From: Hyphomicrobium sp. NDB2Meth4
GTDB lineage: Bacteria; Pseudomonadota; Alphaproteobacteria; Rhizobiales; Hyphomicrobiaceae
Assembly (NCBI RefSeq): GCF_900117445.1
Contig: NZ_FPEJ01000001.1
Coordinates: forward strand, 1-64,000
DNA length: 64,000 bases
Direction of reading: 5' to 3'
The stretch's first letter is position 1; each line of letters starts with the position of its first letter. Of the stretch, positions 1,015 to 23,354 are shown piece after piece. A program made the position numbers and the translations under genes. The notes under the pieces are model-generated. The model was not told the origin of the DNA, ran no database searches, and saw only the letters and a program-made list of their open reading frames with translations.

Positions 1015-1257
1015 TGCACATCTGCCGCGCCGCGAATCAGATGCGGCCTCAACGCCAAGCCAACGTTCAAATCCGCGGAGTCGACCGAAATGCCAAAACG
1101 GCGCTTTGCCGAGTTTGCGGACGTGCAGCCGGATATCGGCAGTTGCTTCATTGGTCAAAGTCCTTTTTCCGCTTAACCTCGCCGAGCGGACGCACGCACG
1201 TCGGGCGACAAGCGAGAGCGGGCGTGCATCCACGACACGTACCATCGGTATCGATTT

Positions 1258-3033
1258 ATGCTGCATGCTACTCGACAGACGCCCCGAGACTCGCCGCTAC
1301 CCAGTCTCGAGGACGAGGTGGCCGCCGAGCAAGTCGCGACCCTGTTTAGCCACGTTGCCTTCGGCGTGCTTGCGGCGACGGCCGGCGCGGCCATCCTCGG
1401 TGGAACGCTCTGGTGGCTCGGACTGACGCAGTTCAGAACCGGAATGTTCTGGACTGGCTATATCGCCTTGTGCGCCCTCGCTCACATACTCCTGCAGCGA
1501 TCCTATTCCCGCGCCAGGCCGGCCACATCAGATTGGCAAGCCTGGGGAATGGGGTTCACGGCAATCGCCCTCGCCGAAGGGCTGGGCTGGGGCTGGGCAC
1601 CGCTGTACCTCGTGAGCGGCGGCTTCGAGGTTCGCCTGCTTGCGATGATGGTTGTATTCGGTGTTGCGGCCGGTGCCATCCCCGCGTTCAGCGCTTACCT
1701 GCCCGCCTTCTTCGCAATCTTTCTTCCAGCCACCTTGCCTTACGCCTTGGTCAGTCTCGGTGCGACCGACCCGTTGGCCCAAGCAAGCTCGTTGTTGATG
1801 CTGGTATTCATTGTTGCCTTGGCCATTCTCAGTGTCGGCACCAATCGGACCCTCAAAGACAATGTGCGGCTGCGCATCGCCACCCAGCGGATGGCCGAGG
1901 AGTTGAGGCGACAGAAAGAGATCGTGGAGCAGGCGAGCTTAGCTAAGTCCACGTTCCTCGCCGCCGCGAGCCATGACCTGCGCCAGCCCATTCACGCTCT
2001 GGGCTTATTCGTGGGTGCTTTGCGCGCGGTAGAAATCCCCCAGCCGGGGCGAAGGCTCATCGAGCAAATTGAAGCTTCCCTCATCGCAATGGACGGGCTC
2101 TTCTCGGCGCTGCTCGACATCTCTCGACTGGATGCCGGTGTCGTCGAAGTCCAAAAACGCCCATTCGAGATCGCACCGTTTCTCGCGCGCATATGCCGTG
2201 ATGCGAGGCTAGACGCCGAGGCGAAAGGTCTAACGGTAACCTGCGTGCATTCCGGCCGGCTCGTCGACACCGATCCTGTGCTGCTTGAGCGGATCGTGCG
2301 TAATCTGGTGTCGAATGCTGTCCGCTATACCGATCGCGGCCGCGTCCTGATCGGTTGTCGCATACGTCACCGACAACTATCCATCGAGGTTTGCGACACC
2401 GGTCGTGGAATAGCAGAACGCGACAGGGAGAAGATTTTCCAGGAGTATTTTCAAGTCGGTAATCCGGAACGAGACCGGACCAAAGGTCTTGGGTTGGGGT
2501 TGGCGATCGTGCGCAGGCTTGCCACCTTGCTCGATTGTCCGTTGAGCTTGCGATCCGTACCCGGAAAAGGGTCGTGTTTCTCTATCAGCGTTCCGCTGGC
2601 CGCACCGGACGCTCTCGCGACGAGCGACCAATACGAGATGGGGCCGCTGGCGACCGGCCTCGTTCTCGTCGTGGACGATGAAATCGCGATCCGCCAAGCC
2701 ATGGCCAGCCTTCTAGGTGGCTGGGGTCATCAGGTCGTCGCTGCCAGCTCAGGCGACGAAGCCATCCGCCATATGGCGAACTGCCCGAAGAAGCCGGACC
2801 TGATCATCAGCGACCTTCGACTGCGAGATCAAGAGACTGGGATCGAGGTGATCGAGCGAATGCGAGCGGAGTACAACGATACGATCCCTGCCATGCTGAT
2901 CACCGGTGACACGTCGGCCGCCAGAATTTCCGATGCTCAAAAAAGCGGGCTGCTCGTCCTGCACAAGCCGGTCCCCAATGGAAAACTGCGTGCCGCCATT
3001 GCAAACCTGATGCACAAGGCGGGCTCGGCCTAG
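1258..3033 (+). CDS. Hybrid sensor histidine kinase with C-terminal receiver domain
   Basis: Membrane-bound hybrid two-component kinase of 591 residues. The N-terminal ~200 residues form about six hydrophobic segments with no obvious periplasmic sensor domain. A short coiled-coil linker leads to the HisKA domain with the H-box SHDLRQPIHALG (phosphoacceptor His239). The ATPase domain follows with N-box NLVSNAVRYT, G1 DTGRGI and G2 GLGLGLAIV. The last ~120 residues are a receiver domain with VVDDE, phosphoacceptor Asp519 (IISDLRL) and the conserved Lys in LHKPV. The HDLRQPxHALGLF form is typical of alphaproteobacterial kinases paired with NarL/FixJ regulators. Its 3' end faces the response-regulator gene 8 bases away, so the two are convergent and probably one signalling pair. 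The signal is unknown. Confidence 0.9.
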   Translation: MLHATRQTPRDSPLPSLEDEVAAEQVATLFSHVAFGVLAATAGAAILGGTLWWLGLTQFRTGMFWTGYIALCALAHILLQRSYSRARPATSDWQAWGMGFTAIALAEGLGWGWAPLYLVSGGFEVRLLAMMVVFGVAAGAIPAFSAYLPAFFAIFLPATLPYALVSLGATDPLAQASSLLMLVFIVALAILSVGTNRTLKDNVRLRIATQRMAEELRRQKEIVEQASLAKSTFLAAASHDLRQPIHALGLFVGALRAVEIPQPGRRLIEQIEASLIAMDGLFSALLDISRLDAGVVEVQKRPFEIAPFLARICRDARLDAEAKGLTVTCVHSGRLVDTDPVLLERIVRNLVSNAVRYTDRGRVLIGCRIRHRQLSIEVCDTGRGIAERDREKIFQEYFQVGNPERDRTKGLGLGLAIVRRLATLLDCPLSLRSVPGKGSCFSISVPLAAPDALATSDQYEMGPLATGLVLVVDDEIAIRQAMASLLGGWGHQVVAASSGDEAIRHMANCPKKPDLIISDLRLRDQETGIEVIERMRAEYNDTIPAMLITGDTSAARISDAQKSGLLVLHKPVPNGKLRAAIANLMHKAGSA

Positions 3034-3040
3034 GCGAGGA

Positions 3041-3676
3041 TCAGATCAAACCCGACTCCCGTCCGACGGCGGCGGCTTGCGTCCGGTTGACGACATTCAA
3101 GGCTTTGAAGATTGCAGTGATGTGCGCCTTTACTGTCTTCTCGGACAGATTGAGCTCGTGAGCGATGATCTTGTTTGGCTGCCCTTCGCTGAGGCGCCGC
3201 AAAACCTCGATCTGGCGAGGCGTCAAGTTTGAACCGCCATCCTGGCCGCGGCTCGGCGTCGAGCCGGCCCGGGCTCCCATTTCACTGAGGACCAGCGGCG
3301 GCACGTAGATCTCGCCCTGGAGAACCAGTTTGATGGCTGAGATGAGGGTGTGCTGGCTCGCCGATTTCGGCACATAGCCGAGCGCACCTTGCGCCAGCGC
3401 GTTTCGGGCATCCCGCGGCTCTTCCGACGATGACAAGACGATCACCGGAAGATCAGGGCGGCTGCGGCCGAACTCCGGCAGTGCGGACAAGCCGTTCATG
3501 CCGGGCATGACAAGATCGAGAATGACGACATCAAGGTCCTGCTGCTCTTCGACCAGCCGGAGTGCCGCCTGGGCATCACCCGCTTCAAGGACGACCGCGT
3601 CAGGCCCAAGCTGTCGCAAAAGGGCAACGAGCCCTTCTCGCAAAACAGGATGATCGTCCACGACCAACAGCTTCAT
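3041..3676 (-). CDS. NarL/FixJ-family response regulator
   Basis: DNA-binding response regulator, 211 residues. The receiver domain has the acidic pair VVDDHP, phosphoacceptor Asp54 in VILDLVMPGMNG, and Lys in VPKSAS. The C-terminal LuxR-type HTH has the signature LTPRQIEVL and NKIIAHELNLSEKTVKAH. I start at the ATG at 3676 (MKLLVVDD); a longer frame to 3712 adds 12 residues unlike the family. It is convergent with the hybrid kinase and divergent from the small-membrane-protein/AAA+ operon beginning at 3926. The shared 250-base intergenic region makes control of that operon by this regulator plausible, but no binding site is proven. Confidence 0.9.
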   Translation of the reverse strand: MKLLVVDDHPVLREGLVALLRQLGPDAVVLEAGDAQAALRLVEEQQDLDVVILDLVMPGMNGLSALPEFGRSRPDLPVIVLSSSEEPRDARNALAQGALGYVPKSASQHTLISAIKLVLQGEIYVPPLVLSEMGARAGSTPSRGQDGGSNLTPRQIEVLRRLSEGQPNKIIAHELNLSEKTVKAHITAIFKALNVVNRTQAAAVGRESGLI

Positions 3677-3925
3677 GCGCCGACTATGGTTTGCGTCATG
3701 CCCGCGTGACAAGAGGAGAGAGGTCTCAATTTCCCGATTGCGGTCTTAGGACCGTATCGAGACGTGCGTTCAATTTACGATGTACATCTGGGCGTGCATT
3801 TTGCCTGGCGGCAGGCCGAGAATGGGATCTAACTTGGAAGACGTCGGACATTTCATTTTCGTCCGCCGAATTGGTGTTTCCCGCTGAGCCGCCGAGCTAA
3901 CGAGTCTTTTTTAGGCATCGCAGCC

Positions 3926-4525
3926 ATGCACGCACAAAGGCCTGAACACCCTGAAGCTCATGGTTCAGCCGGCACCGGCCCCAATCGGCCAATGCAGCAA
4001 GGTGCCGGCAATCGCGGCGCAAGCGCCCAGCCCGCATTCGATCTTCGCGTCGTACTGTTCGCCGGGGTCGGCCTTCTCGCGGCCGCGCTGTTGAGCGTCG
4101 GCTATTTCGATGATGACCGGTCGCCGAAACGTCCCGGCGAACAAAACTCTCTGATGACCACCGTCGCCGCCGCTGAAGCCGAGCAAGCCATTGCGCGCCT
4201 GCTCCTGAGCGAAGCGCAGAAGGAGCAAGTGCGCGAGGATGTCTCGCGCGGACGGCTGCGGCTCGCATGGATCAAGGTCTCCGATAACCTCACCGAGGAC
4301 GGCGACTGGATACGCCTTGAAGCAGCGGGATTTCGCCAGGACATCCGTTTGCTGCACCAGCCCTACCAGATCGCCGTCCCATACCTGCCGGGCAGCACGG
4401 CAACCGTAACCGGCCTGGTCGATGGCATCGATGGCGACATCACCGTGTCCGTCTCGACTGGCGGCGGGCTCATTTCGCTCAAGCCGCTCAAACAGGGAGA
4501 AACGCTCCAGATTCCGACGCCTTAG
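3926..4525 (+). CDS. Hypothetical single-pass membrane protein, first gene of AAA+/Sel1/NADAR operon
   Basis: I do not recognise the family. The 199-residue product has a Gly/Pro/Gln-rich cytoplasmic N-terminus (about 1-38), one membrane helix (roughly 39-60, VVLFAGVGLLAAALLSVGYF) and an external C-terminal domain. That domain holds a short helical stretch (AAEAEQAIARLLLSEAQ) and a beta-rich region, with alternating Val/Thr/Gly strands near the end. There are no cysteines. The start ATG has only a weak Shine-Dalgarno. It lies 132 bases upstream of the first AAA+ ATPase on the same strand, so it may be part of the same transcript, perhaps as a membrane adaptor; that is inference. Confidence 0.6.
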   Translation: MHAQRPEHPEAHGSAGTGPNRPMQQGAGNRGASAQPAFDLRVVLFAGVGLLAAALLSVGYFDDDRSPKRPGEQNSLMTTVAAAEAEQAIARLLLSEAQKEQVREDVSRGRLRLAWIKVSDNLTEDGDWIRLEAAGFRQDIRLLHQPYQIAVPYLPGSTATVTGLVDGIDGDITVSVSTGGGLISLKPLKQGETLQIPTP

Positions 4526-4657
4526 ATCGAGGCAACCTCTCGCACATTCACTATCGCGCATGGGCACGGGCAACGTCGCTTTACGGGATTTCTCTCAGGT
4601 GGCAGACTTTCTTTATACATATGGCTTGGGCAATCTCGCGCACCGAGGACTTTTGAC

Positions 4658-5854
4658 ATGACGGGGATGGCGTGGGCCGGTCGGCTCGGCATCATCATTG
4701 CCATCATTGTCATCGAGCGGGCCTCGCCGGCTCTCGCCTGGTTTCTGGTCATTCTCGCCGGTGTGGGCGCCATCTGCTTCGTGCCCTATCAGGGCCGCCT
4801 CTTCCCCGAACCTATCCTGCGCGCCATCGACAGCGCTGTTGGCAAGCACGGTCGCGCCAGCGAGCCCAAGGCACCGACCGTCATCGACGAGACAGAACTC
4901 GCCAGCTATCTGAAATCACGTGTCATTGGCCAGAACGACGTCGTGTCGGCCATCTCCCGCCGATTGCGCCAGCGGCTGGCAGCGCGCAGACCAGGAAAGC
5001 CTATCGCGGTGTTCGGATTTGCCGGGCCCCCCGGAGTGGGCAAGACTTATCTTGCGCAGGTCCTTGCGAAAAAACTCTACGGGAACGACGCGCACCTACA
5101 CGTCTTCGAGATGGCGAAGTTTCGCGAAGGCTACTCTGCCAACAGCCTGTTCGGCGTGCCCGCCGGGCTGCAGGGCTCCGGAGAGCCGGGACTCCTCTCG
5201 CGCGCTCTGCGCGACACCCCCAACGCGATCATCCTGTTGGACGAGTTCGAGAAAGCCAGCCGCGACATTCACATGCAGTTCCTGTCGGCCTGGAATGACG
5301 GCTTCGTCACGGATCTGGGCACCGCCACCAAGTATTCGACCACGGAAGCGATCTTCATTCTCACCACCAATGCCGGGTCGCGCCGTATCGCCGAGCTAAC
5401 GCGCGATCCCACGATCGCGCAAGACGAGGTCAACGACCTCGTTAAGGCGGCGCTCGTCGATGCCGATTTCGCGCCGGAGGTGTTGTCTCGAATAGATGTC
5501 GTCTTTGCATTCCGCGCCATCGAGGGACTGGATATCGCGCGCGTCGTCGCGCTGGAGATCGAACGCAAGGCAGCCGAATACCAGCTGCAGATCGCACCGG
5601 GCGGAATCGAACCATCCATATTGCTCGACGCAATGAGCACCTTCACCGAAACCAAGCCGAAGGGCGGCGTGCGCGATATCGCGCGGCAGATCGAAGACAA
5701 GATCGCCGACGGCTTGATCGAAGCGAGAGCGGATGGAGCCACCTTCATCCGCCTGCAAGCATCGGGAAAGCGCGTGCGCGTCATACCGGTATCGGAGCAG
5801 GACGCGATGTCTGCCGCTGCGGCCGCGCCCGTCAGCTCAGAGGCAATCGCATAG
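4658..5854 (+). CDS. Membrane-anchored Clp-like AAA+ ATPase (paralogue 1)
   Basis: AAA+ ATPase of the Clp/HslU-like class (AAA_2 fold) with a single ring domain, 398 residues. Two hydrophobic helices at about 8-20 and 27-43 should anchor it in the inner membrane. The ATPase core resembles the second domain of ClpA/ClpB: a GQNDVV box near 91, Walker A GPPGVGKT at 123-130, Walker B IILLDEFEKA with Asp195-Glu196, sensor-1 LTTNAGS and an arginine-finger region PEVLSRIDVVFAF. No ClpP-binding loop or substrate-binding N-domain is apparent. It is closely paralogous to the next gene, 16 bases downstream, and probably arose by duplication. The two may form a mixed ring that unfolds or remodels a partner, but the substrate is unknown. 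Confidence 0.85.
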   Translation: MTGMAWAGRLGIIIAIIVIERASPALAWFLVILAGVGAICFVPYQGRLFPEPILRAIDSAVGKHGRASEPKAPTVIDETELASYLKSRVIGQNDVVSAISRRLRQRLAARRPGKPIAVFGFAGPPGVGKTYLAQVLAKKLYGNDAHLHVFEMAKFREGYSANSLFGVPAGLQGSGEPGLLSRALRDTPNAIILLDEFEKASRDIHMQFLSAWNDGFVTDLGTATKYSTTEAIFILTTNAGSRRIAELTRDPTIAQDEVNDLVKAALVDADFAPEVLSRIDVVFAFRAIEGLDIARVVALEIERKAAEYQLQIAPGGIEPSILLDAMSTFTETKPKGGVRDIARQIEDKIADGLIEARADGATFIRLQASGKRVRVIPVSEQDAMSAAAAAPVSSEAIA

Positions 5855-5870
5855 GAGCGAGGGAAGCCCC

Positions 5871-6959
5871 ATGGCACGAGATGGCAAGCAGAGCGGTTCC
5901 CTGAGCCAGGACCCCCTCGATCGTCTGTCGAACTTCAACGTGCTCTCCGACAAATGGGAAGCCAAGAGCCGCGAACTCGCCGTCATCGATCCGGTAGAGC
6001 TGGCGAGCTATTTGAAGTCGAGGGTCATCGGGCAGAATATGGTCGTTGATTCCGTCGTTGCGCGTCTGCATCGGCGCATGGCGGCCAAGCGGCCGAACAA
6101 GCCAATCGCCGTGTTCTGCTTCGCCGGGGCACCCGGTGTCGGCAAGACCTACCTCGCCCAGATCCTGGCCGAGAAAATCTACGGCAGCCCAAAGAACCTC
6201 CACTACATCGACATGACCAAGTTCGGCAGCGAGGCGACCTCCTGGACGCTCTTCGGCTCCGCCAGCGGCCACGTCGGCTCCAACAAGCCCGGCCTGCTCC
6301 CTCGCTACCTGCGCGACGTGCCGAACTCCGTCGTACTTCTGGACGAGATCGAGAAGGCACACCGCAGCATTCTCACGCAGTTTCTCTCGGCCTGGAATGA
6401 CGGTTTCATCACCGAGATGAGCGACGGCTCGAAGCATTCCACCGCCGAGGCCATCTTCATCATGACTACGAACGCCGGGCGTGCCCGCATTAACGAGTAC
6501 ACGCGCGATCCGAAAATCACCCAGGAGGAACTCAACAAGCTGGCCAGAGGCGCTTTGGAGGACGCCCAATTCGCGCCCGAGGTGCTCTCGCGCGTGGACG
6601 ACGTCTTCGCCTTCCGCGAGCTTGCCGGGCTCGATATCGCCCGCGTCGTCGCCCTCGAAATCGAGAAGACCGCTAAATCCTACGGCCTTGAAATCGCCGG
6701 CCAGGGCATCGACCCGGAAATCCTGATGACCGCCATCGACGAGTTCACCGAGAACAAGCCGAGCGGCGGCGTGCGCGAGATCGCTCGCCATATCGAAGAC
6801 AAGATCGCGGACGGGCTTATCGATGCGCGCGCAAACGGCGCCATGAGCGTGATGTTCGAAGCGGACGGGCCGGACGTTCGCGTGATCCCCATCGATGCGC
6901 CTGCGACCGGCTCAGACACCGCCAACGCAACCGGCTTGGCGAGCGAGCAGAGCGAATAG
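5871..6959 (+). CDS. Clp-like AAA+ ATPase (paralogue 2, soluble)
   Basis: Second single-domain Clp-like AAA+ ATPase, 362 residues, sharing most of its core with the preceding gene (both contain LASYLKSRVIGQN). It has no membrane helices; residues 1-40 are polar. Motifs: Walker A GAPGVGKT at 86-93, Walker B VVLLDEIEKAH, sensor-1 MTTNAG, arginine-finger region PEVLSRVDDVFAF. I start at the ATG at 5871 because it follows a purine-rich Shine-Dalgarno (ggagcgaggg) just after the upstream stop. An in-frame opening from 5733 only reads through the 3' end of the previous gene. It sits between paralogue 1 and the Sel1/TPR gene with 12-16 base spacings, which points to co-translation. Function in the operon is unknown. 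Confidence 0.85.
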   Translation: MARDGKQSGSLSQDPLDRLSNFNVLSDKWEAKSRELAVIDPVELASYLKSRVIGQNMVVDSVVARLHRRMAAKRPNKPIAVFCFAGAPGVGKTYLAQILAEKIYGSPKNLHYIDMTKFGSEATSWTLFGSASGHVGSNKPGLLPRYLRDVPNSVVLLDEIEKAHRSILTQFLSAWNDGFITEMSDGSKHSTAEAIFIMTTNAGRARINEYTRDPKITQEELNKLARGALEDAQFAPEVLSRVDDVFAFRELAGLDIARVVALEIEKTAKSYGLEIAGQGIDPEILMTAIDEFTENKPSGGVREIARHIEDKIADGLIDARANGAMSVMFEADGPDVRVIPIDAPATGSDTANATGLASEQSE

Positions 6960-6971
6960 CGGAGATCGGTG

Positions 6972-9053
6972 ATGAGCGCGCCCACCAAAGGCATGCTGTC
7001 GAAACAGGCGGCCCGCAAGTCCTTGATCGGCACCCTGATCGATCTCTATAAGGGCGACCTGGCGTTTCGCGGCATGACGGACTTCGCCGTCATCGGCTTC
7101 GTCACCATGATGTTCCTGCATCCACCCGCAGCCATCCAATTGCCAACCTGGGATATCTGGCGCCCGGCCCCTACGCCCACTCCGGGACCGACCCCGACGC
7201 CCTTACCACCCGCTGCCGCGGCCGTCCCTATCCAGTTTCCACCCAACATCAAGAATGCACGCTTCTCCGATCCCTTCATCTTCGACATCGACAAATCCGT
7301 ATTTCAAAGCTCGAGTTCCGACGACCAGAAGCGCCTCGCCGAAGCATGGGTGGCAATCGCGCTCGACCAAAGTGACAAAGCTCTCGCCGCTCTGAAGGGC
7401 GCAAGCGACGCCGATCCCAACGTCGCCTTGCTGCGCGGTGCCGCCGAGGCGGGCCGCCGTACTCAAGCAGGCTACAAGGCGGCGCAAACATATTGGCGGC
7501 AGGCGGTCAATGGCGGCAGCGTGCAAGCAAAGGCGCTACTTGGCCAGCTTATCGGCACCGGCCTGACGGGAGCGGCCAGCAATCCCACTGAGGCGGCTCA
7601 ACTCATTGACGCTGGTGTCGATCTTGGTGACCGGCAAGCAATGCGCATTGCCGGCATCGGCTATCTGAGCGGTGAGCTCGGCAAGCTCGACCCAACTCGT
7701 GCAGCTGATCTTCTGAAGCGCAGCGCCGACGCCGGCGATCCGATGGCGATGGCGCTATACGCGCGGATGCTATCGGACGACCTTGGCGTTGCGAAAGCTG
7801 ATCGCGATCTCGCCGCCGCCTACCTCGAGAAGGCGGCGAACGCCGGCCTTACCATGGCGCAGTTCACCCTCGGCCAATGGATCTTCGATCAATTCAGCAA
7901 GGGAGTGCGAGCGGACCCCAAGGAGGGAATCGCGTGGATGGAGCGCGCTTATGAGAAAGGACGCTCTCTCACCGGACTGACAGGCCTAGCGGCATTCTTG
8001 GATGGCACGCCGGGTGCCTGGAGCAACAAGAAGCTTGCGGCAGACTACGTTCGTCGCTGCTCGGCTCTCCCCTACTGTCAGGTCTACGTCGGCTATGAAT
8101 GGAAGGAAGGAAATTTCGGCAAGGTCGACCTCCTCGCCGCGCGCGCGCATACCGCTGTCAGCACCAGGTTCAACCCCAACGGTATCGCCCAGCTCAACGA
8201 GATCGATGCGAAACTGAGCCCTGCGCAGCGGGCCGAGGCTGCGACGCTCGAACAAAAGCTGCTCGAAGGCATGAGCCCGGAGCCGCCCGAGCTGCACATC
8301 CAGTTCGCCGAGCTCCCGCCCATCCCGCGGCTCGAGGCAATCTGGCCGTCCATCCCCCCGATCGCCGGCGTTTCATCCAGCACTCCGCAGCCCGATAAGT
8401 CCGCCGTCGGCCCCTCTGATCTCCAGAGCCTCTTCGACCAAGGTGAGGCTGCCTTCTACAAAGGCGATTACAGGGCCGCGATAGCGGCGATGGACAAGTA
8501 TATCGACGCCGCCCAATCCGCCGACGATAAGTCGAAGGCCATCGGTTATTACGCGCGCGCACGCTCAAGCTTACAGCTTGCTATTGCAGAGGGAGACACG
8601 TGCAAGGCGATGCTGCCGCCGCCGCCATCATGCTCGTCGGCTACGAAGTTCGAGCCGGCCGCAAGGGACCTCGATAAGTCGTTGACGCTCGATCCGAACC
8701 AAGCCGAGGCAAATTTCCTTTTCGGGCTCATCGCAGACAAAACGGGCGATCAGCGCAAAGCCATCGACTACTACACCTATGCGCTGCGCGCGAACCGCGA
8801 CTATGGCGCGGCTTACAACAACCGCGGTGTCCTTTATGCGAATCTCGGCCAGAACGACCTAGCGATGGCGGACTACAACGAGGCGATCCGCTCCGACCCG
8901 CAAAATGCCTGGGCGTGGGCCAACCGCGGCGTTCTTTTCACCTACTATCGCAACAAGAAGCAGGCGATCTCCGATCTGCGCCATGCCCTGGAAATCGCCC
9001 CGGACCTCGCGTATGCGCGGGACAATCTGCGCAAGCTGGGTGTTCGCCGCTGA
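6972..9053 (+). CDS. Membrane-anchored Sel1/TPR repeat protein
   Basis: Repeat-scaffold protein of 693 residues. The N-terminal ~40 residues are basic and cytoplasmic, followed by one membrane segment (FAVIGFVTMMFLHPPAAI) and a Pro/Thr-rich linker (PTPTPGPTPTPLPP), which puts the bulk outside the membrane. Residues ~140-400 hold Sel1-like repeats (for example GDPMAMALYARML and AGLTMAQFTLGQW). A linker follows, then TPR repeats at about 490-690 (NQAEANFLFGLIADKTGD, YNEAIRSDPQNAWAWANRG). Such repeats bind proteins, so it is probably the assembly platform of the operon. I start at ATG 6972, five bases after GGAGATC; a GTG lies directly upstream at 6969. The stop lies 58 bases before the next start. 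Confidence 0.8.
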   Translation: MSAPTKGMLSKQAARKSLIGTLIDLYKGDLAFRGMTDFAVIGFVTMMFLHPPAAIQLPTWDIWRPAPTPTPGPTPTPLPPAAAAVPIQFPPNIKNARFSDPFIFDIDKSVFQSSSSDDQKRLAEAWVAIALDQSDKALAALKGASDADPNVALLRGAAEAGRRTQAGYKAAQTYWRQAVNGGSVQAKALLGQLIGTGLTGAASNPTEAAQLIDAGVDLGDRQAMRIAGIGYLSGELGKLDPTRAADLLKRSADAGDPMAMALYARMLSDDLGVAKADRDLAAAYLEKAANAGLTMAQFTLGQWIFDQFSKGVRADPKEGIAWMERAYEKGRSLTGLTGLAAFLDGTPGAWSNKKLAADYVRRCSALPYCQVYVGYEWKEGNFGKVDLLAARAHTAVSTRFNPNGIAQLNEIDAKLSPAQRAEAATLEQKLLEGMSPEPPELHIQFAELPPIPRLEAIWPSIPPIAGVSSSTPQPDKSAVGPSDLQSLFDQGEAAFYKGDYRAAIAAMDKYIDAAQSADDKSKAIGYYARARSSLQLAIAEGDTCKAMLPPPPSCSSATKFEPAARDLDKSLTLDPNQAEANFLFGLIADKTGDQRKAIDYYTYALRANRDYGAAYNNRGVLYANLGQNDLAMADYNEAIRSDPQNAWAWANRGVLFTYYRNKKQAISDLRHALEIAPDLAYARDNLRKLGVRR

Positions 9054-9111
9054 TGCACGCAGCATGCGCCACCGAGCTGTCGCTCAGAGAAATATTCAAG
9101 AGGTTTGCGTT

Positions 9112-9660
9112 GTGTGGTTTCGTAATCTGACAATCGCCGCCTTCCTTCTGATCGGTGCACATCAAGCAGCGGCGCAGGAAGATTATCCGGCAGACGGCAA
9201 GATCGGCGTCAAGTACGGCCCCTGGGAGATAAGACCCGAGCACGGCGGCAGCGTCGCGCGCAACATCATCGATGCCGACAACTGGCGGTATTACGCGTTC
9301 TGGGTCGAGCCGCTGATCGTCGAGGTCATGACCCAAGGCGGCCATATGGTCGGCGGAACGCTCACCGTCGAGGGCGGAGTGACGAGCAAGTTCATCTGTT
9401 ACGCCGGCGGCGACCGTTGCACGGCGGATCGAACGAAGGTGAATACAGGCCTGCGCACAGGCCGGTACGCCGTTCTGGAGCTCGATCTCACCGAAGGCAG
9501 GAAGGCCGGGCCCTTCAACATTCCACTCGAGGGTCTGTCCGCGTTTCTCTTCATGGGCGGCAACCAGGGCGATAACAGTCCGGCCCCGCCGAAGCCACCA
9601 CCGCCCAAGTGGGAGAACATGAACCCTGAGCCCGAGGTCAACCCGCAGCCGAGACGGTAG
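9112..9660 (+). CDS. Hypothetical secreted protein
   Basis: Unrecognised 182-residue protein with a clear signal peptide: WFRNLTIAAFLLIGAHQAAAQ, with cleavage likely after AAA-Q near residue 21. The mature part is probably beta-rich, with two cysteines (FICYAGGDRC) that could form a disulphide, and ends in a Pro-rich tail (PAPPKPPPPKW) that may cross the cell wall or bind a partner. I start at GTG 9112 because AAGAGG lies eight bases upstream and this places the signal peptide at the N-terminus. The same frame open from 8905 is only overlap with the Sel1/TPR gene. It lies between that gene and the NADAR gene on the same strand, so it is likely a periplasmic member of the same system. Confidence 0.65.
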   Translation: MWFRNLTIAAFLLIGAHQAAAQEDYPADGKIGVKYGPWEIRPEHGGSVARNIIDADNWRYYAFWVEPLIVEVMTQGGHMVGGTLTVEGGVTSKFICYAGGDRCTADRTKVNTGLRTGRYAVLELDLTEGRKAGPFNIPLEGLSAFLFMGGNQGDNSPAPPKPPPPKWENMNPEPEVNPQPRR

Positions 9661-9682
9661 CGCTAAGCGACGGGAATAGAGC

Positions 9683-10207
9683 ATGGTCACCGACGGAGCG
9701 GAAATCATTGTCCCGCCGGACAACCGCATACTCTACTTCGGGCGCGACCGCGATCACTTCGCTTTTCTCTCGCATTTCCATCCAAGTCCGATCGTCATCG
9801 ATGGCGAGGACTGGCCGACGGTGGAGCACTACTACCAAGCGCAGAAATCGGCCGACCCTGCATACAAAGCGGCAATTCGCGCCGCTATTAAACCCGGCAT
9901 GGCGAAGCGCCTTGCAGCACCGCCATCTGCGCCGCGCCGCATCTCGCAGCAGTCGTGGTTTCGCAAGCACGGCAAGGAACCGCGCCCCGACTGGCACGAT
10001 GTGAAGCTCGCCATTATGCGCCGCACCGATCACGCCAAGTTCTCTCAGAACCCCGAACTGGCTGCACGCCTTCTCGCCACCGGCGATGCCGAGTTGGTGG
10101 AGGATTCGCCCGGCGAGCCATTCTGGGGCACCGGCCCGGACGGCGCCGGTCTCAACTGGGCGGGCCGAATCTTGATGGAGGTGCGCAGCCGGCTGCGCAG
10201 TTCCTAG
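9683..10207 (+). CDS. NADAR-family protein (N-glycosidase / ADP-ribose processing fold)
   Basis: NADAR (YbiA/RibX-like) domain protein, 174 residues, essentially one domain. Diagnostic matches to the family are FAFLSHFHPSPIVIDG, the core WPTVEHYYQAQK around residues 38-49, FRKHGKEPRPDW, KFSQNPELAARLLATG and the C-terminal WGTGPDGAGLNWAGRILMEVR (quoted here only in part for length). Known members are N-glycosidases acting on riboflavin-pathway intermediates or enzymes that remove ADP-ribose from nucleic acid; some act as antitoxins to DarT-type ADP-ribosyltransferases. No such toxin is visible nearby. It starts 22 bases after the secreted-protein gene and closes the operon. Because NADAR genes are often linked to phage conflict, this gene gives the strongest functional hint for the cluster. 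Confidence 0.85.
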   Translation: MVTDGAEIIVPPDNRILYFGRDRDHFAFLSHFHPSPIVIDGEDWPTVEHYYQAQKSADPAYKAAIRAAIKPGMAKRLAAPPSAPRRISQQSWFRKHGKEPRPDWHDVKLAIMRRTDHAKFSQNPELAARLLATGDAELVEDSPGEPFWGTGPDGAGLNWAGRILMEVRSRLRSS

Positions 10208-10484
10208 CAACGCGCGTGACCGCAGGCGCTTGCAGCGCTTAGTGTAGTCAGCCGGTTCACCTCCAAGAGCGGACCTGGTCAGCGATCGTCCAGGGGGGCG
10301 CCGACTAGTTCTGGCTGATGACAGCTTCTGGGACGAACCTGTCGTCCTCAGCTCACACGAGCGGTAAACGGTAACCCTCTCTTGAGGCCCGTCAGGGACT
10401 ACAGGCGCGCCTCCTATCCGAACCAATCGCAGCTGCGGACGGTTGTCCTTGGCAGCCAATACCGACGATACGCAGGAGAATCCA

Positions 10485-10832
10485 ATGAGAGTTCGCAAGT
10501 TCGCAAAAGCCGATGCTTCGTTCCAACGCTCACCGGGACAAGATGGCGACGTCTTCGCCGCTAACATGGTCGATCAGCGACACGGAGCGCCTATCACCAT
10601 CGGTTTCGGACGGTATGGGCCAAACCAAGTTCTCGATGAGGTGCTTGCTGTCGATGATGTTATGGTGATCCTCGAAGGGCGGCTTTCGGTTTCGACAGAT
10701 TCTGCGGAGATGACCGCTGAGCCTGGTGAAATCGTCTACATGCCCAAGGGTCAGAAGGTTAGCATCCGCTCTCACGAACAAGGTGCCGTCACTGCATACG
10801 TGACGTATCCACACTGGGAGGAGGCTCTCTGA
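10485..10832 (+). CDS. Small cupin-domain protein (EutQ-like)
   Basis: Single-domain cupin of 115 residues. The beta-barrel pattern is visible in EVLAVDDVMVILEGRLSVS and EMTAEPGEIVYMPKGQKVSI, which match cupin motifs 1 and 2. The usual metal-binding His residues are not all present, because the first motif has VLAVDDV rather than HxHxxxE. It could be a sugar- or metabolite-binding or isomerase cupin similar to the EutQ C-terminal domain. The start at 10485 follows an AGGAGA at 10473-10478. It is separated from the NADAR gene by about 277 bases in which I see nothing, and is likely an independent transcription unit. Confidence 0.7.
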   Translation: MRVRKFAKADASFQRSPGQDGDVFAANMVDQRHGAPITIGFGRYGPNQVLDEVLAVDDVMVILEGRLSVSTDSAEMTAEPGEIVYMPKGQKVSIRSHEQGAVTAYVTYPHWEEAL

Positions 10833-11320: not shown

Positions 11321-11881
11321 CTAGCGAACGCCTGCCTTCAGCGCTCGCGCCAACGTCGGCCGTGAGATTCTCAGTTGACGCGCGACCGCAGCTACAGTCG
11401 TGCAACCATCATCTAGAGCGGCGAGAGCGGCCTGAACTTCCTTCGTTCCCAATAGTTTTGGCCGACCGAGCCGTTTACCACGCTTGCGCGCGGCGGCAAT
11501 TCCGGCACGCGTTCGCTCGCTGATAAGAGCACGTTCGAATTCAGCCAGCGCGCCCATGACGTGAAACAGCAATCGACCGCTTGGCGTAGCGGTATCAATT
11601 GCCTCACAAAGCGACACGAAACCAACGCCTCTTTCCCGAAGCACATTGATGAGATCGATCAGGTGAGAGAGGCTCCTGCCGAGCCTGTCGAGGCGCCAAG
11701 CCACAACCATATCGCCAGGTCGAGCTGTTGTAAGCAGCATGTCGAGTGCGGGACGGCTCGTCCGCGCGCCTGAAACACCCTCATCGCGGAAGATCTGCTC
11801 GCATCCGGCAGCCACAAGCGCATCGACTTGCAGCGCGAGGCTTTGGTCATCGGTTGAAACGCGCGCATAGCCGATTTTCAT
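11321..11881 (-). CDS. Serine recombinase (resolvase/invertase family)
   Basis: Small serine recombinase of 186 residues. The catalytic domain begins at residue 1 with MKIGYARVSTDDQSL, where the Ser of the RVST motif is the nucleophile. It continues with VVAWRLDRLGRS (RLxRSxxD motif) and FHVMGALAEFERALISERT (the E helix). The C-terminus carries a HTH (CTTVAAVARQLRISRPTLAR). I start at ATG 11881; the open frame up to 11938 adds 19 residues unlike the family. Length matches Tn3/Hin-type resolvases. It heads a two-gene leftward unit. With no transposase beside it, it is probably a remnant of an older mobile element. Confidence 0.9.
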   Translation of the reverse strand: MKIGYARVSTDDQSLALQVDALVAAGCEQIFRDEGVSGARTSRPALDMLLTTARPGDMVVAWRLDRLGRSLSHLIDLINVLRERGVGFVSLCEAIDTATPSGRLLFHVMGALAEFERALISERTRAGIAAARKRGKRLGRPKLLGTKEVQAALAALDDGCTTVAAVARQLRISRPTLARALKAGVR

Positions 11882-12064
11882 AGACACACGAAGAGCGATG
11901 CCTCCGGGGAGGCAAGAGGGGTCTCGTCGCCCCGCCATAAGTTGGGTCGTCCACAGGTTATCAAAATCGGACCTTTCTGATCGCTGGCCGGGAGCTGTTC
12001 ACAAGCTCGCTCAACCCGCGCCAGGAGCGTAATCCGCCAGACGAACACCCGGCAAATGTTTCTC

Positions 12065-13240: not shown

Positions 13241-14920
13241 ATGGTGCTTTTTATGACCCGCCCAACGAAACGTTCCGGCTCATCCAACCAACAGTTCCGA
13301 AAGCGTGTACCTGCCGACGTTCAGCACGTCGCCCGCGGCGAGACCATCGTATTCTCGCTACCGAAAGCGCTGACCGGAGATGAGTGCATCGAGGTGACTG
13401 CACAGATCGGGACGCACGTGGAGTTTTCCCTGCGCACGTCAGACCCGGCTCTGGTGAAGCTTCGCCTCAGCAAGGCGTCGGAACACTTCGAGCGCACCAT
13501 GGCTGCCTACCGCGAAGGCCCGCAGCGGCTAACTCACAAAGAGTGTGTAACAATCGCGGGCATCCTCTATCGCGACTTGGCTCAGAACTTCGAGGACAAT
13601 CCTGGCGAGGCAGAAATCTGGCAGCTTGTTCGCAACGCGAATGACCGCGCCGCCTCCTCACCGGAGCGAATGGAGCATTGGTTTGGCCCCAGCGCAGATG
13701 AGCTTCTTTCCAAATTGGGCATCAAGACGGATCGTGAGAGCCGCAAGGCCCTGCTGCGGGAAGTCGCCAACGCATTCAACGACGCCGCTGCGAAGCTCAA
13801 ACGGAACGCAGAAGGCGACTTTCGCCCCGACCCTGTAGCCGAGCGCTTCCCGAAGTGGGAAGCCGCTAACAGCGGGGTGCCGAAAGCTAACGGCTCAGGG
13901 GGCGCCCTGACGCCCACCGAGCTTTTCGAACTCTGGCAGCGGCATCCCGACCAGAAAACGGTCACGCCAAGCACATTGGCGTCTTACTCGGCTGTCTTCG
14001 AAAATCTCAAAGCCTTCCTTGTGAAGCGCTACGGAGCGGAGCCAACCGCGCCCAGCCTCACCCGCGACGACTTTCGCGCATTCATCGACATGCGCTCCGA
14101 AAAGGACGCGGTTTCAGCTAACACGATCAACCGCGGAGACCTCGCGGCGATTAACGCAGTGTTCAACTGGGCAGTCGAACAAGACAAGCTGACAACCAAT
14201 CCAGCCGACGGCGTCAAGCGCAAGGTTCGAAAAGGCGCCGAAGGGGAAAACAAAAAGCGCAAGACGATCAACGAAGCTGAGGCGCGGGCGATCCTTAGAC
14301 ACGCCTTGAACTACCCAGCAAGGGCAAGCCGGCGAGAAGACCCAAAGCTAGTTGCGGCCAAGCGTTGGGTTCCCTGGCTGATGGCTTACACTGGGACCCG
14401 AGTAGGTGAAGTCGCCCAGCTGAGAAAGTCCGACGTGGCGCCGTTTGATGGACACCCAGCCATCGCCATCACGGTGGAGGCAGGAACCGTCAAGACCAAG
14501 AGCACGTGGCATATCCCACTGCATCCTCACTTGATCGAGCAAGGCTTCCTTGATTTCGTAGCCAAAGCGGAGGACGGACACATGTTCCTCACCCCGCGCC
14601 CCGACCTCTACCGCCCCGACGCGAAAGCCAGCCGGACGAACGACCCTCGCGGCATCCTGGGTCCTTTGCAGAGCGTGAAGAACAAGCTTGCCGAATTTGT
14701 CAGAGAGGTCATGCCAAACACAGGCAACGGCCCATCACCCAATCACGGCTGGCGTCATCGCTTTAAAGCAGTCGCTCGCCAGTACGGCATCGACCTGGAG
14801 GTGCGCAACGCCTTTGCCGATCATGCCTCAGTTAGCGTCGCTGGCGAGTACGGCAAGGACGAACTCTACGCGGCAATGGTCGCCGCCCTGAGCAAAATCC
14901 CCCGATATGACGTAAAGTGA
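13241..14920 (+). CDS. Tyrosine recombinase (island integrase)
   Basis: Site-specific tyrosine integrase, 559 residues, which would excise and insert the island at the tRNA end 86 bases upstream. An N-terminal ~230-residue region with an arm-type/DUF6538-like start precedes a core-binding SAM-like domain (about 225-340) and the catalytic domain. Catalytic residues: Arg387 in TGTRVGEVAQL, His502 and Arg505 in NHGWRHRFK, and the likely nucleophile Tyr537 in VAGEYGKDELY. A Lys in the beta-hairpin is likely within VKTKSTWH. I start at ATG 13241; a second ATG four codons later is also possible. It appears intact. Confidence 0.92.
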   Translation: MVLFMTRPTKRSGSSNQQFRKRVPADVQHVARGETIVFSLPKALTGDECIEVTAQIGTHVEFSLRTSDPALVKLRLSKASEHFERTMAAYREGPQRLTHKECVTIAGILYRDLAQNFEDNPGEAEIWQLVRNANDRAASSPERMEHWFGPSADELLSKLGIKTDRESRKALLREVANAFNDAAAKLKRNAEGDFRPDPVAERFPKWEAANSGVPKANGSGGALTPTELFELWQRHPDQKTVTPSTLASYSAVFENLKAFLVKRYGAEPTAPSLTRDDFRAFIDMRSEKDAVSANTINRGDLAAINAVFNWAVEQDKLTTNPADGVKRKVRKGAEGENKKRKTINEAEARAILRHALNYPARASRREDPKLVAAKRWVPWLMAYTGTRVGEVAQLRKSDVAPFDGHPAIAITVEAGTVKTKSTWHIPLHPHLIEQGFLDFVAKAEDGHMFLTPRPDLYRPDAKASRTNDPRGILGPLQSVKNKLAEFVREVMPNTGNGPSPNHGWRHRFKAVARQYGIDLEVRNAFADHASVSVAGEYGKDELYAAMVAALSKIPRYDVK

Positions 14921-14948
14921 AAGGGTGGGCAGCCGGGAGGGGGGATAC

Positions 14949-15815
14949 ATGCCTGATCCAGACGATTGGGATGGCTCGATCGATGGAGACCAGCTCTATC
15001 AACAACGCGCTCGGAAGGCCTTGCCTCTCCTGGTGAGACAGGCTGAGGCAGCCCAGACCATAACTTACAGCGATCTTGCTGATGAACTGGCTATGCCGAA
15101 CCCGCGCAACCTTGACTACCCTCTTGGTGCCATCGGCAAGAGGCTGCTGAGCCTAGGAGCGGAGTGGGGCGAAGCCATACCGCCTATCCAATGTGTCGTC
15201 ATCAACAAGGCTGACGGGTTTCCAGGCAAAGGGATTGGGTGGTTCATCAATGAGGAGAATTTCAAAGCGCTCTCCCGTGCTCGCAAGCGTGAAGTGATCC
15301 ACGCAAAGCTACAGGATATCTTTGCCTACCCACGATGGCGTGAGGTTCTGGAGGCCCTCCACCTTCCTTACGTGCCGCAGAATTATACGGAGGCAAACAG
15401 GCGGGCAGCAGCTCTTGGCGGCGGTGGCGAGAGCGATGATCACAAAGTCCTCAAGACTTACGTGGCCAGCACACCTGCCCTACTCGACTTGCCTCTGGGG
15501 ACACCGATCGGCGAGCAAGAGTATCCCTTGCCTTCCGGCGACTCGCTCGACGTTTCCTTCCGGCACCGGAACGAATGGGTCGCGGCCGAGGTCAAGTCGG
15601 CCCGCTCATCTGACGACGACATCATGCGCGGCATTTACCAATGCGTCAAATATCTCGCGGTGATGCGGGCGGTACAAATCACGGAGTCGAAGGAGCGCTC
15701 TGCGCGTGTAGTCCTAGTGCTAGAAGGACCACTTCCGAAATCGCTTGCGGCGCTCAAGAACCAGCTTGGAGTCGAGGTGAAGGACCGGGTCCAGGTGCCC
15801 CCTCGTTCAACCTAG
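14949..15815 (+). CDS. Putative PD-(D/E)XK nuclease-like protein linked to type I R-M
   Basis: Protein of 288 residues without a family name that I can assign. The N-terminal ~110 residues look like a small winged or alkyltransferase-like helical region ([25 protein letters not shown]). The C-terminal third has a restriction-endonuclease signature: [20 protein letters not shown], giving the D...ExK catalytic pattern of PD-(D/E)XK enzymes. I start at ATG 14949 because a G-rich Shine-Dalgarno (GGGAGGGGG) lies just before it. It lies between the integrase and hsdM on the same strand, so it probably works with, or beside, the restriction system. The function is inferred from the motif only. Confidence 0.65.
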
Positions 15816-15894
15816 CGCCCCTCTTCAGGGTCGCCAGCACCATAACACCCCGCTAGATTTGATTCGTGCAGGATCATCGGTCGGGGGCCTAGGC

Positions 15895-17730
15895 GTGAAC
15901 CATCAGAGCTTGTCTTCCTTCATCTGGTCGGTCGCTGACCTGCTGCGGGGGGATTACAAACAATCGGACTACGGCAAGGTTATCCTGCCGTTCACCGTGC
16001 TGCGGCGCCTGGATTGCGTGCTGGAAGGGACCAAGAAAGCTGTGCTCACGGAGCACACGGCTAGGTCGAAGGCAGGCGTCAACCCCGAGCCGTTCCTGCT
16101 CAGGAAGTCAGGGCAGTCGTTCTACAACACCTCACCAATGGACCTGCGCAAGCTCCTGGGCGACCCTGACCGCATCCGCGACAACCTCACGGCCTATGTC
16201 GAGGCATTCTCGCCATCGGTGCGGGACATCTTCGAGCGGTTCGCCTTCCACACCCAGGTGGAGAAGCTGGCGAAGGCCGAGCTGCTCTATCTGGTGGCCG
16301 AGAAGTTCGCCAACATCGACCTGCACCCCGACAAGGTCAGCAACGCCCAGATGGGGCTCGTGTTCGAGGAGCTGATCCGCCGCTTCGCGGAGCTGTCGAA
16401 CGAGACGGCCGGAGAGCACTTCACGCCGCGGGAGGTGATCCGGCTGATGGTCAATCTGCTGTTCGTGGAGGACGACGCGGCGCTGACCAAGTCCAGTGTG
16501 GTGCGCACCATCTACGATCCCACGGCAGGGACGGGCGGCATGTTGTCGGTGGCCGGGGAGTATTTGAGTGAGCTGAACCCCAAGGCCCGGCTCACCATGT
16601 TCGGCCAGGAGCTGAACGATGAGTCCTATGCCATCTGCAAGGCTGACATGCTCATCAAGGGCCAGGACGTGGCCAACATCGTCGCCGGCAACACACTGTC
16701 CGACGATGGCCACCCAGCGCAGAAGTTCGACTACATGCTCTCCAACCCGCCATTCGGTGTGGAGTGGAAGAAGGTGGAGAAGGAGGTTCGCCGCGAGCAC
16801 GAGGTGGAAGGATTCAACGGCCGCTTTGGGCCAGGCCTCCCCCGCGTCTCGGATGGGTCGCTGCTGTTCCTCATGCACCTACTGTCTAAGATGCGCCGCG
16901 CCAAAGACGGTGGCAGCCGCTTCGGCATCGTGCTCAACGGTTCGCCGCTGTTCACGGGTGGGGCGGGAAGCGGGGAGAGCGAAATCAGACGCTACGTCCT
17001 GGAGAACGACCTATTAGAGGCCATCGTCGCACTCCCTACGGACATGTTCTACAACACCGGCATCGCCACCTATGTATGGATCGTCTCCAACCTCAAGCCA
17101 GAACCCCGAAAGGGTAAGGTGCAGCTCATCGACGCCAGCGCCTTCTGGCAGAAGATGCGCAAGGGCCTTGGCTCCAAACGCAAGGAGATGGGCGAGGAGC
17201 ACATCGCAACCGTGACGCGGCTGTTCGGCGCCTGCGTGGAGGCGCAGCTTGCCGCTGTGCTCAATGCGGAAGGCAAGGAACTATCCCGCGAGGTTGTCAC
17301 CGCTGGCGAGAGGAAACCCAAAGCCCCGAAGGGCGGGCAAATCAAGCTGACGCCGATCTCTCGCATCTTTCGCAACGAGGACTTCGGCTATCGAACTATC
17401 ACCGTCGAGCTCCCCCTGCGCGACGAGGACGGCAACGTGGTGCTGATCGAGAGGGGCAAACAGAAAGGCAAGCCACAACCTGACACCTCGCTGCGCGACA
17501 CTGAGAACGTGCCACTCGACGAGGACGTGGTGGCTTACTTCAAACGCGAGGTGTTGCCCCATGCGCCCGATGCCTGGATCGATGAGGAAAAGACCAAGGT
17601 AGGCTACGAGATTCCGTTCAACCGCCACTTCTACGTCTTCGAACCTCCACGCTCGCTCACCGAGATCGACGCCGACCTCAAGCAGGTGACAGCGCGCATC
17701 CTGCAGATGATCGAGGGGCTAACGGCGTGA
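15895..17730 (+). CDS. hsdM: Type I restriction-modification methyltransferase subunit
   Basis: HsdM, the adenine-N6 methyltransferase subunit of a type I complex, 611 residues. The N-terminal helical domain ([16 protein letters not shown]...) is the family's characteristic opening. The SAM motif I is [10 protein letters not shown] and the catalytic motif IV is NPPFGVEW, both in the middle third. The C-terminal region holds a coiled segment that contacts HsdS. I start at GTG 15895, which matches the usual HsdM N-terminus; a TTG at 15859 would add 12 unlike residues. The stop overlaps the GTG of hsdS (GTGA), so translation is coupled. Intact. Confidence 0.95.
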
Positions 17731-19073
17731 GCTTCCCGAGATATGAGAGGTACAAGGACTCCGGCGTGGAGTGGCTGGGGCAGGTGCCGGCACAATGGCT
17801 GGTCATTCCATTGCGGCAGGTCGTGTCACTGGTTGAGTCCGGCACTAGCGTCAACGCCGTAGATAGGCCCGCGGAGACCGGCGAGTTTGGAGTGCTGAAA
17901 ACAAGTTGCGTCTACCTCGGGGAGTTCGACGCGGCACAAAATAAGGCAGTGCTGCCCGAGGAGCATAATCGCGTCTCGTGTCCTCTCAGGCCGGGCACAT
18001 TGATTGTTAGCCGTATGAACACTCCCGACCTTGTGGGAGCGGCAGGCCTCGTGCGCGATGCGCCGAGGGGGCTATTTCTCCCGGACCGCCTCTGGCAGGT
18101 TCACTTCGCTGACGTGGAGCCCTCGTTCGCGCACTACTGGACGCTCACGCATAGCTACCGTGCACAGGTCCAAATGGCGTGCACTGGTACAAGCTCAAGT
18201 ATGCAGAACTTGTCACAAGACCAGTTTCGCAGCTTCATTTTTCCTCAGCCGCAATTGCGCGAGCAGCTTGCAATCGTCGCCTTCCTCGACCGCGAGACCG
18301 CCAAGATCGACGCGCTGGTGGAGGAGCAGAGGCAGCTGATCGAGCTGCTCAAGGAGAAGCGACAAGCTGTCATCTCCCACGCCGTCACCCGGGGTCTCGA
18401 CCCGACCACGCCGCTGAAAGAATCCGGCGTGGAGTGGTTAGGGCGTGTGCCCGAGCATTGGGAGGTGCGGCGTATCGGGTGCCTTTTCGGCGAGGCCACA
18501 GAAGAGGGCCTTCACGATCTACCGGTGCTGAGCGTCTCGATCCATGATGGCGTGTCCGACAAAGAACTGAGCGATGACGAGGCAGATCGAAAGATCACGA
18601 GGAGCGAAGACCGCACGAAATACAAGCGAGTGCAGCCCAACGACCTTGTCTACAACATGATGCGGGCTTGGCAGGGCGGCTTCGGCACTGTCCAGGTCGA
18701 AGGCATGGTAAGCCCTGCGTACGTCGTAGCGCGGCCCCTATCAGCGATCCACACTCGCTTCGTTGAGCACATGCTACGAACCGCACACGCAGTTGAAGAA
18801 ATACGGCGATACTCCCATGGCGTGACGGATTTCCGCCTCCGTCTTTATTGGGACGAGTTTAAGAATATCAGACTTGCAATCCCGCCTCTACGCGAGCAAC
18901 AGCAGATTCTGGCATTCATTGAGGAGAACGCCGCCGGGACAGCCGAATTAGTGGCGACTGCGGAACATTCTATCGCCCTCCTCCAAGAGCGCCGCACCGC
19001 CCTCATCTCAGCCGCCGTTACCGGCAAGATCGACGTGCGCGGTGCAACTCCCTTAACGGAGGAGGCAGCATGA
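17727..19073 (+). CDS. hsdS: Type I restriction-modification specificity subunit
   Basis: HsdS determines the DNA recognition sequence of the complex. The 448-residue product has two target-recognition domains, each opened by a near-identical phrase: [15 protein letters not shown] near residue 9 and [15 protein letters not shown] near 230. Each is closed by a coiled-coil spacer ([19 protein letters not shown]; then [19 protein letters not shown]). The duplicated layout gives a bipartite recognition site. Its first codon overlaps the hsdM stop and its stop overlaps the next start, so it is within one operon. Recognition specificity cannot be read from the sequence. Confidence 0.93.
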
Positions 19074-23106: not shown

Positions 23107-23239
23107 CAGGTAACCCGGATGTTTTGATGCAAACGCCCAATGTGGCGTCTGAATATTCGTAAATTGCACTATCCCCCCTCTGGGGGTGCCGATCACGGGA
23201 GCCTAAGAAGCTTTTCGAGCTGGTTCTCCCACAGGAGCC

Positions 23240-23264: not shown

Positions 23265-23354
23265 CCTGACGCGTCAGCCGCGGTCTAGATCGATCCATGT
23301 CTGCTACTGATGCCATTCCACTGAGCAGCGAGCATAACTGCGGCGAGGCACGAC

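Follow-up and report, generated by a model that had tools for sequence, protein, structure and literature searches.

The question raised by this locus is what kind of system is encoded by six plus-strand genes at positions 3926-10207 of the window, i.e., bases 1-64000 of contig C13 (NZ_FPEJ01000001.1) of Hyphomicrobium sp. NDB2Meth4, the genome of which (G000) comprises 4.08 Mb on 17 contigs. A first-pass annotation had described a one-strand operon of closely spaced genes, including genes for a pair of paralogous Clp-like ATPases with single rings, a Sel1/TPR protein anchored in the membrane and a NADAR protein, together with a divergent NarL-type regulator, and had interpreted it as a membrane-associated remodelling machine for stress or defence; the hybrid histidine kinase next to the regulator was absent from that description. 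The genes were verified to be present at this place and in this arrangement, and S1, the ATPase and the Sel1/TPR protein were found to recur together at other loci. The working model, which is held with about even confidence, assumes a rare AAA+ remodelling or extraction machine that moves horizontally, would be anchored in the inner membrane and would have periplasmic arms. The features are as follows (aa, amino acids; TM, transmembrane):

3926-4525, plus strand: S1, a family-less protein of 199 aa with a predicted single TM segment, followed in the C-terminal part (residues about 76-199) by a helical hairpin and a beta sandwich
4658-5854, plus strand: AAA1, 398 aa, with an N-terminal TM hairpin and one Clp-D2-type AAA+ domain
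5871-6959, plus strand: AAA2, 362 aa, a soluble paralogue of AAA1 with one AAA domain
6972-9053, plus strand: TM-anchored Sel1/TPR protein; an alternative GTG start at 6969 is possible
9112-9660, plus strand: S2, a family-less protein of 182 aa that has a proline-rich tail and, judged by eye, appears to have a signal at its N-terminus
9683-10207, plus strand: NADAR protein of the YbiA branch (TIGR02464 above cut-off), cargo rather than core
1258-3033, plus strand: hybrid histidine kinase (HK) with HisKA, HATPase_c and receiver domains (Pfam), accessory to the transferred block
3041-3712, minus strand: NarL-type response regulator (RR) with a GerE/LuxR domain, divergent from the operon, start codon uncertain
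1103-10335, no strand assigned: block of 9.2 kb common to this genome and G004, which appears to act as a single transferred unit

The gap between S1 and AAA1 was 132 nucleotides (nt), and the following gaps, derived from the coordinates and start codons, were about 16, 9-12, 58 and 22 nt in operon order. The spacing of 9-60 bases that had been claimed thus held for most gaps, but not for the first one. For AAA2, the start at 5871 is more probably correct than the opening of the reading frame at 5733, judging from relatives and spacing. In 3600-10500, the number of promoter- and terminator-like sites did not exceed that of shuffled sequences.

Fourteen loci of the ATPase family were compared, namely the window (C13), C10 (a 17-kb contig of the same genome), G004, G006, G028, G846, G280, G375, G751, G064, G170, L055 (an Acetobacteraceae metagenome-assembled genome) and plasmids of the alphaproteobacteria Microvirga and Methylorubrum. 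S1 was encoded directly upstream of the ATPase at 11 of them, the exceptions being G064, G170 and Microvirga. As had been expected of a conserved neighbourhood of the AAA+ and Sel1 genes, a homologous TM-Sel1 protein was encoded downstream at eight loci (C13, C10, G004, G006, G028, G846, G280 and G375), and the order S1-AAA(1-3)-Sel1/TPR was present at 8/14. L055 and G751 had a different TM protein in the Sel1 position; at G064 and G170 an unrelated short TM protein preceded the ATPase and S1 was absent. The pairwise distances of the proteins co-varied for S1 and AAA (r=0.69 at 11 loci), for Sel1 and AAA (r=0.83 at 8 loci) and for Sel1 and S1 (r=0.97 at 8 loci), values that were reached by 0 of 5000 shuffles in each case. 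Without G004 the values were r=0.57 (6/5000 shuffles), r=0.67 (44/5000) and r=0.97 (2/5000), respectively. S1, the ATPase and the Sel1 protein are thus co-inherited. Because the gene order recurs at other loci and the distances co-vary, the arrangement exceeds chance. The comparison indicates that S1, AAA and the Sel1/TPR protein form the conserved core. In contrast, the NADAR protein, which had been taken for a defining part, was present in the fetched flanks of only two of the 14 loci, the window and G004, and both belong to the same transferred 9.2-kb block; it was rejected as a core component.

The coupling of S1 and the ATPase differed with the number of ATPase genes. The reading frames overlapped by 1-4 nt at five of the six single-ATPase loci with S1 (4 nt in C10, G280, G375 and L055, and 1 nt in Methylorubrum), and the sixth, G751, can also start at -4. 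Where the ATPase was duplicated, the gap was 119-185 nt. Outside the 14 loci, G374, a divergent S1 locus, had S1 alongside different ATPases.

Both ATPases were assigned to the Clp-D2 type of AAA+ proteins. They matched Pfam AAA_2 (E 4.7e-29 and 6.6e-29; 102 and 101.5 bits), and Walker A, Walker B, the arginine finger and sensor 2 were all intact, with canonical Walker A motifs (GPPGVGKT and GAPGVGKT). This agrees with the two paralogous Clp-like ATPases of the first-pass annotation; their identity was 56-61%, varying with the stretch aligned. AAA2 aligned with the second ring of ClpE, ClpC and ClpB, and its nearest solved structures were ClpE (E 2.5e-38) and ClpC (E 1.8e-37). A hydropathy scan yielded a hydrophobic N-terminal hairpin in AAA1 and none in AAA2, and the pore loops were GLQG, without an aromatic residue, in AAA1 and GHVG in AAA2.

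A tree of 20 ATPase sequences revealed that the AAA1 and AAA2 copies of the window, G004, G006 and G028 form two clades (support 100/99 and 97/95), and that the three copies of G846 group together (100/100). There were accordingly two separate duplication histories: the split of AAA1 and AAA2 preceded the divergence of the window, G004, G006 and G028, and the G846 copies arose independently of it. At duplicated loci the first copy carried the TM hairpin and the later copies lacked it, as seen by hydropathy in the window, G006 and G846 and by alignment in G028. The pore loop was GYVG at 7/9 single-ATPase loci (GYSG in Microvirga, DHQG in Methylorubrum), while AAA1 of the two-ATPase loci had GLQG, GFAG or GLTG and thus lacked the tyrosine. 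In copy 2 of G846, the Walker B motif was LLDD in place of LLDE; apart from this and the Methylorubrum sensor 2, the motifs for ATP use were intact. The differences in pore loop and Walker B would fit mixed rings with specialized subunits.

For S1, the hydropathy scan gave one TM segment, and an AlphaFold2 model from an 11-row alignment predicted a helical hairpin and a beta sandwich behind it, with block means of the predicted local distance difference test (pLDDT) of 80-97 across residues 81-199. No family was found for S1 in Pfam, NCBIfam, PADLOC and PHROGs at the thresholds used, and no clear relative in the PDB (best Foldseek E 0.084; best VIA Z 5.6 at a root-mean-square deviation of 3.5 over 82 aligned residues). 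S1 would represent a family of its own, as yet without a name, and serve as a marker of the system. The Sel1/TPR protein matched both Pfam families (Sel1 E 1e-09, TPR E 2.5e-15); it has a basic N-terminus (by eye), a single weak hydrophobic segment, Sel1 repeats and TPRs.

The two genes behind the core gave a different picture. S2 looks secreted (by eye), had no family in the same four libraries, recurred among the loci examined in G004 only, and yielded an uninformative structure model (mean pLDDT 36.5). An assignment to IalB (PF06776) gained no support, S2 not being among the five places that matched in its own genome at E<=10 (seven first-look candidates were scored), and a relationship to the third gene of the Methylorubrum and G374 clusters was dismissed (hhalign probability 0.1). 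The NADAR protein was identified by Pfam (E 2.1e-31) and belongs to the YbiA branch, since TIGR02464 gave 103.6 bits at a cut-off of 73.7; the nearest solved structure was YbiA (2b3w, E 2.9e-27). The NADAR family anti-phage protein NF053876 was rejected (57.1 bits, cut-off 240). As regards a DarT/YarT-NADAR toxin-antitoxin pair, Pfam recognized no ADP-ribosyltransferase (ART) domain or toxin partner among the operon proteins, of which S1 and S2 are family-less and might conceal an unrecognized ART.

The operon and its regulatory genes appear to have moved together as one block. Bases 1103-10335 were 97.8% identical to G004, a second species of the same genus, over 9,234 columns; past either end no sequence was shared in the stretches compared, and the flanks were unrelated. 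In the core DNA compared between both genomes, identities were 85.4%, 82.1% and 70.2% in three pieces from one region pair. Because the block is 97.8% identical, the flanks are unshared and the core reaches only 70-85%, joint movement of HK, RR and all six genes is the apparent explanation. A stretch of C13 (355-368 kb) with pieces of 73-74% identity to the same G004 stretch was taken to contain paralogous Clp genes and was not used. HK was present in 2/8 genomes of the genus, G000 and G004 (E<=1e-80). NADAR-family genes occurred in 13/102 family genomes (nine over the cut-off), and within the genus again only in G000 and G004. It was also seen that 40 bases near the end of the block (10256-10295) are 87.5% identical, in inverted orientation, to L025:11754-11793, behind the autotransporter gene of C10.

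The system is rare. The ATPase profile at E<=1e-60 matched, own genome included, 5/103 genomes of the family, 5/397 of the order, 2/385 of the class and 1/160 of the phylum, the last being the own genome only; these counts are lower bounds, given the overlap between samples and the small number of candidates scored in each genome (the best four in the order and class searches). The S1 profile at E<=0.001 matched 5/397 order genomes and 3/385 class genomes, weak matches included; the class search gave a weak match in G649 (L041, E 7.9e-5, one stop), and G316 has a weak S1-like reading frame without a family ATPase in the fetched stretch. In plasmid searches, S1 was found in Methylorubrum and, as a domain of another protein, in Rhodovulum. 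S2 was found in no plasmid record searched, and the Sel1/TPR protein gave general TPR matches only, among the best 8 of 17 records. For the C10 ATPase, Microvirga alone exceeded 40% identity among the best 12 of 1512 records. A wider scan of genome contigs was dominated by ordinary Clp proteins, and among six loci examined of 80 (L042, L055, L079, L103, L106, L111) only L055 was a family member. Scans of viral contigs with two ATPases gave no family member.

A membrane-associated remodelling machine is supported by this predicted architecture. In the working model, AAA1 would be a single-ring ATPase of the Clp/HSP100-D2 type that is tethered to the membrane through its TM hairpin, probably in a mixed ring with the soluble AAA2. 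One membrane passage each is predicted for S1 and the Sel1/TPR protein, with a beta sandwich and a solenoid on the periplasmic side, where these domains would recognize or hold a putative client that belongs to the envelope or is exported. This client would then be pulled, unfolded or taken apart by the ATP-driven ring on the cytosolic side or within the membrane, the direction of force being presumed. As the search for domains in the operon gave no protease, release of the client rather than degradation would be likely. NADAR, the secreted S2 and the HK/RR pair would be exchangeable cargo and control of one transferred block. If this is true, it would represent a bacterial torsin-like arrangement, in which a single Clp ring at the inner membrane is coupled to periplasmic domains. 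Two or more duplications would have led to probable mixed rings, and the arrangement would have spread from one species to another. How force acts across the inner membrane could then be tested in a compact model, and a new pathway, in defence or for surface proteins, might be added.

Several observations weigh against this model. The topology was predicted from a simple hydropathy scan only, in which the TM segment of the Sel1/TPR protein was above the threshold in the homologues of G006, C10 and G280, but below it in the window copy. The ATPase is found without S1 in G064, G170 and on the Microvirga plasmid, and thus S1 is not obligatory. The Methylorubrum ATPase is highly divergent (end branch 3.97) and has no recognizable sensor 2 motif. 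With respect to mobility, no inverted or direct repeats of more than 9 bases were present at 1103 and 10335 and no ends of mobile elements were found, while the core comparison comprised a single region pair and the left flank extends only 1.1 kb to the contig end.

A described system of the same composition was found neither in Pfam, NCBIfam and PADLOC nor among the top papers of the literature searches, which were judged by title and start of the abstract and included few subscription journals and no bioRxiv preprints; the corresponding statement of the first-pass annotation stands within this scope. The HSP100 D2 domains (the second AAA domain of ClpB, ClpC, ClpE and ClpV) share sequence homology over about 275 residues and all four motifs mentioned above. 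However, the operon ATPases have one AAA domain and lack the N-domain, M-domain and D1, AAA1 has a TM hairpin, and S1 and Sel1/TPR are co-encoded. Accordingly low were the scores for the double-ring unfoldases ClpB, ClpA, ClpV, ClpK and ClpG (89-152 bits, cut-offs 885-1900), including ClpV/TssH of type VI secretion (TIGR03345, 151.8 and 146.9 bits, cut-off 884.95), and these assignments were rejected. Torsins are single-ring Clp relatives with membrane cofactors and an altered Walker A motif. Pfam Torsin was above its cut-off of 27 in both ATPases (28.3 and 40.1 bits), AAA_2 scoring far higher, and a single ring and predicted membrane partners are common features; in contrast to torsins, the operon ATPases are bacterial and cytosolic, have other partners and have canonical Walker A motifs, so that this hallmark of torsins was absent.

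Among conflict systems, the best PADLOC match of both ATPases was the candidate defence family PDC-M37B (E 2e-22 and 2.2e-20), a partial match to the ATPase core only (136-299 of 390) in a library that gives no cut-off. DolB of Dodola (DolA-DolB) also matched the core partially (E 1e-21 and 5.5e-19), but no DolA match was obtained at E<=0.1 among seven proteins scanned, S1 was unmatched in PADLOC, and Dodola was rejected. The MoxR-vWA-iSTAND ternary conflict systems (PMC7159879) likewise bring together an AAA+ ATPase and partners of the TM, Sel1-repeat or caspase-like kind, some of them near the membrane. Unlike in these, no MoxR, vWA or iSTAND component was recognized in the operon by Pfam (bpMoxR 14.5 bits, cut-off 27; no vWA match), and this assignment was also discarded. 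Stand-alone NADAR/YbiA enzymes (PMC11125620) resemble the NADAR protein in the TIGR02464 score and the YbiA structure match; in contrast, the operon protein sits at the end of an operon, with no recognized ART toxin beside it.

The neighbouring genes bear on three other explanations. An EutQ-like cupin gene (10443-10832), a serine resolvase gene (11321-11938) and an integrase-like gene (13241-14920) follow the block in the window. As an observation in its own right, 13241-27222 is a defence island, with the integrase-like gene, a type I restriction-modification (RM) system, a UvrD/GajB-like gene and a PD-T4-6-like kinase gene; in the RM system, which consists of HsdM, HsdS and HsdR, a PDC-S14/DUF4357 gene separates the latter two.

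The machine could be an anti-phage or conflict system that detects an infection at the envelope and then activates or supplies an effector, i.e., NADAR or, in G846, a caspase-like protein. The mobility and rarity of the cassette speak for this, and so do the PDC-M37B match, albeit partial, and the link of NADAR to toxin-antitoxin pairs that is reported in PMC11125620. The type I RM, PDC-S14, UvrD/GajB-like and PD-T4-6-like genes lie about 5.5-17 kb downstream, behind the integrase, and in G374 genes for a type IIG RM enzyme and SduA come next after the S1 cluster, in the same orientation, but the ATPases of G374 are different. In G846, which has a three-ATPase operon, a caspase (C14)-Sel1-thioredoxin gene (L139:12607-15510, minus strand; PADLOC caspase model E 4.3e-9) precedes S1 at a distance of 33 nt. 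The copy of the block in G004, however, has RND efflux-like and groESL genes as neighbours (by eye), and a PADLOC screen of 68 mechanically chosen reading frames at nine other loci produced four model matches, without a complete defence system among them. The matches (E<=1e-10) were to mad3, mad8 and two pVip models, one member each, the pVip match being probably the pqqE-like gene of G006; the single-gene matches of G064 (PDC-S04, E 2.2e-6) and Methylorubrum (capP, E 3.8e-8) were weak. The NADAR protein was also not seen at 12/14 loci and had no recognized toxin partner in the operon. An anti-phage role is possible, though doubtful; of the earlier interpretation, the machine is supported by the architecture, while defence is only suggested. 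A more general version, namely a new class of envelope conflict machine in which a membrane-anchored mixed Clp-type ring has interchangeable sensing arms in the periplasm and equally interchangeable effectors or cargo (NADAR, caspase-like protease, giant exported proteins), spread as a cassette between what are probably alphaproteobacteria, seems unlikely.

A helper in export or assembly, which would prepare or release giant exported clients at the inner membrane, was suggested by three loci. In G280 (L036, L141) the Sel1 gene is followed on the same strand by genes for an HlyC-like acyltransferase, two family-less small proteins, a very large RTX-repeat protein and the type I secretion proteins ABC/HlyD; in C10 an autotransporter gene, which counts among the genome's 10 autotransporter matches, is divergent from S1; and in G006 the gene divergent from S1 encodes a DUF11/peptidoglycan-binding protein of 1,838 aa. 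The three exported proteins belong to different families, however, and none was found in the fetched flanks of G375, which is from the same genus as G280, or adjacent to the operon in the window and G004; this role is decidedly unlikely. Because defence genes occur near the window copy and G374, exported proteins near three loci, and neither clearly at the other loci screened, neither type of neighbour is a general rule. A mobile protein-quality-control locus with a role comparable to the ClpK/ClpG heat-resistance islands would agree with a mobile Clp-type ATPase and with groES-groEL about 4 kb from the block in G004 (L157:4366-6431, by eye; the GroEL matches annotated groL genes). Among plasmid copies, those of Microvirga (82.0%) and Bradyrhizobium (81.1%) come closest to this GroEL. 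It is nevertheless very improbable: the ATPases have a single AAA domain and reached 114-134 bits at the 1900-bit cut-offs of the ClpK and ClpG models, Pfam revealed no small heat-shock protein, HtpX, FtsH or DnaJ partner in the operon, and plasmid loci annotated with such genes look different.

Several relatives of the core are worth recording separately. The own genome has a second copy of the system on C10 (L025), with a single ATPase gene; this copy is divergent from the autotransporter gene, and an RTX-like protein of 382 aa is encoded nearby (no Pfam match; by eye). L143 and L144 (G064 and G170) are near-identical two-gene units for a TM protein of 161 aa and the ATPase, surrounded by integrase- and ParA-like genes (by eye). 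The S1 clusters of L038 (G374) and L027 (Methylorubrum plasmid) both contain a gene for a secreted-looking coiled-coil protein, the two proteins being 24% identical. On the Rhodovulum plasmid pRGUI01 (L163:8137-9330), an S1-like C-terminal domain is fused to an apparently secreted protein, with no annotated ATPase gene adjoining.

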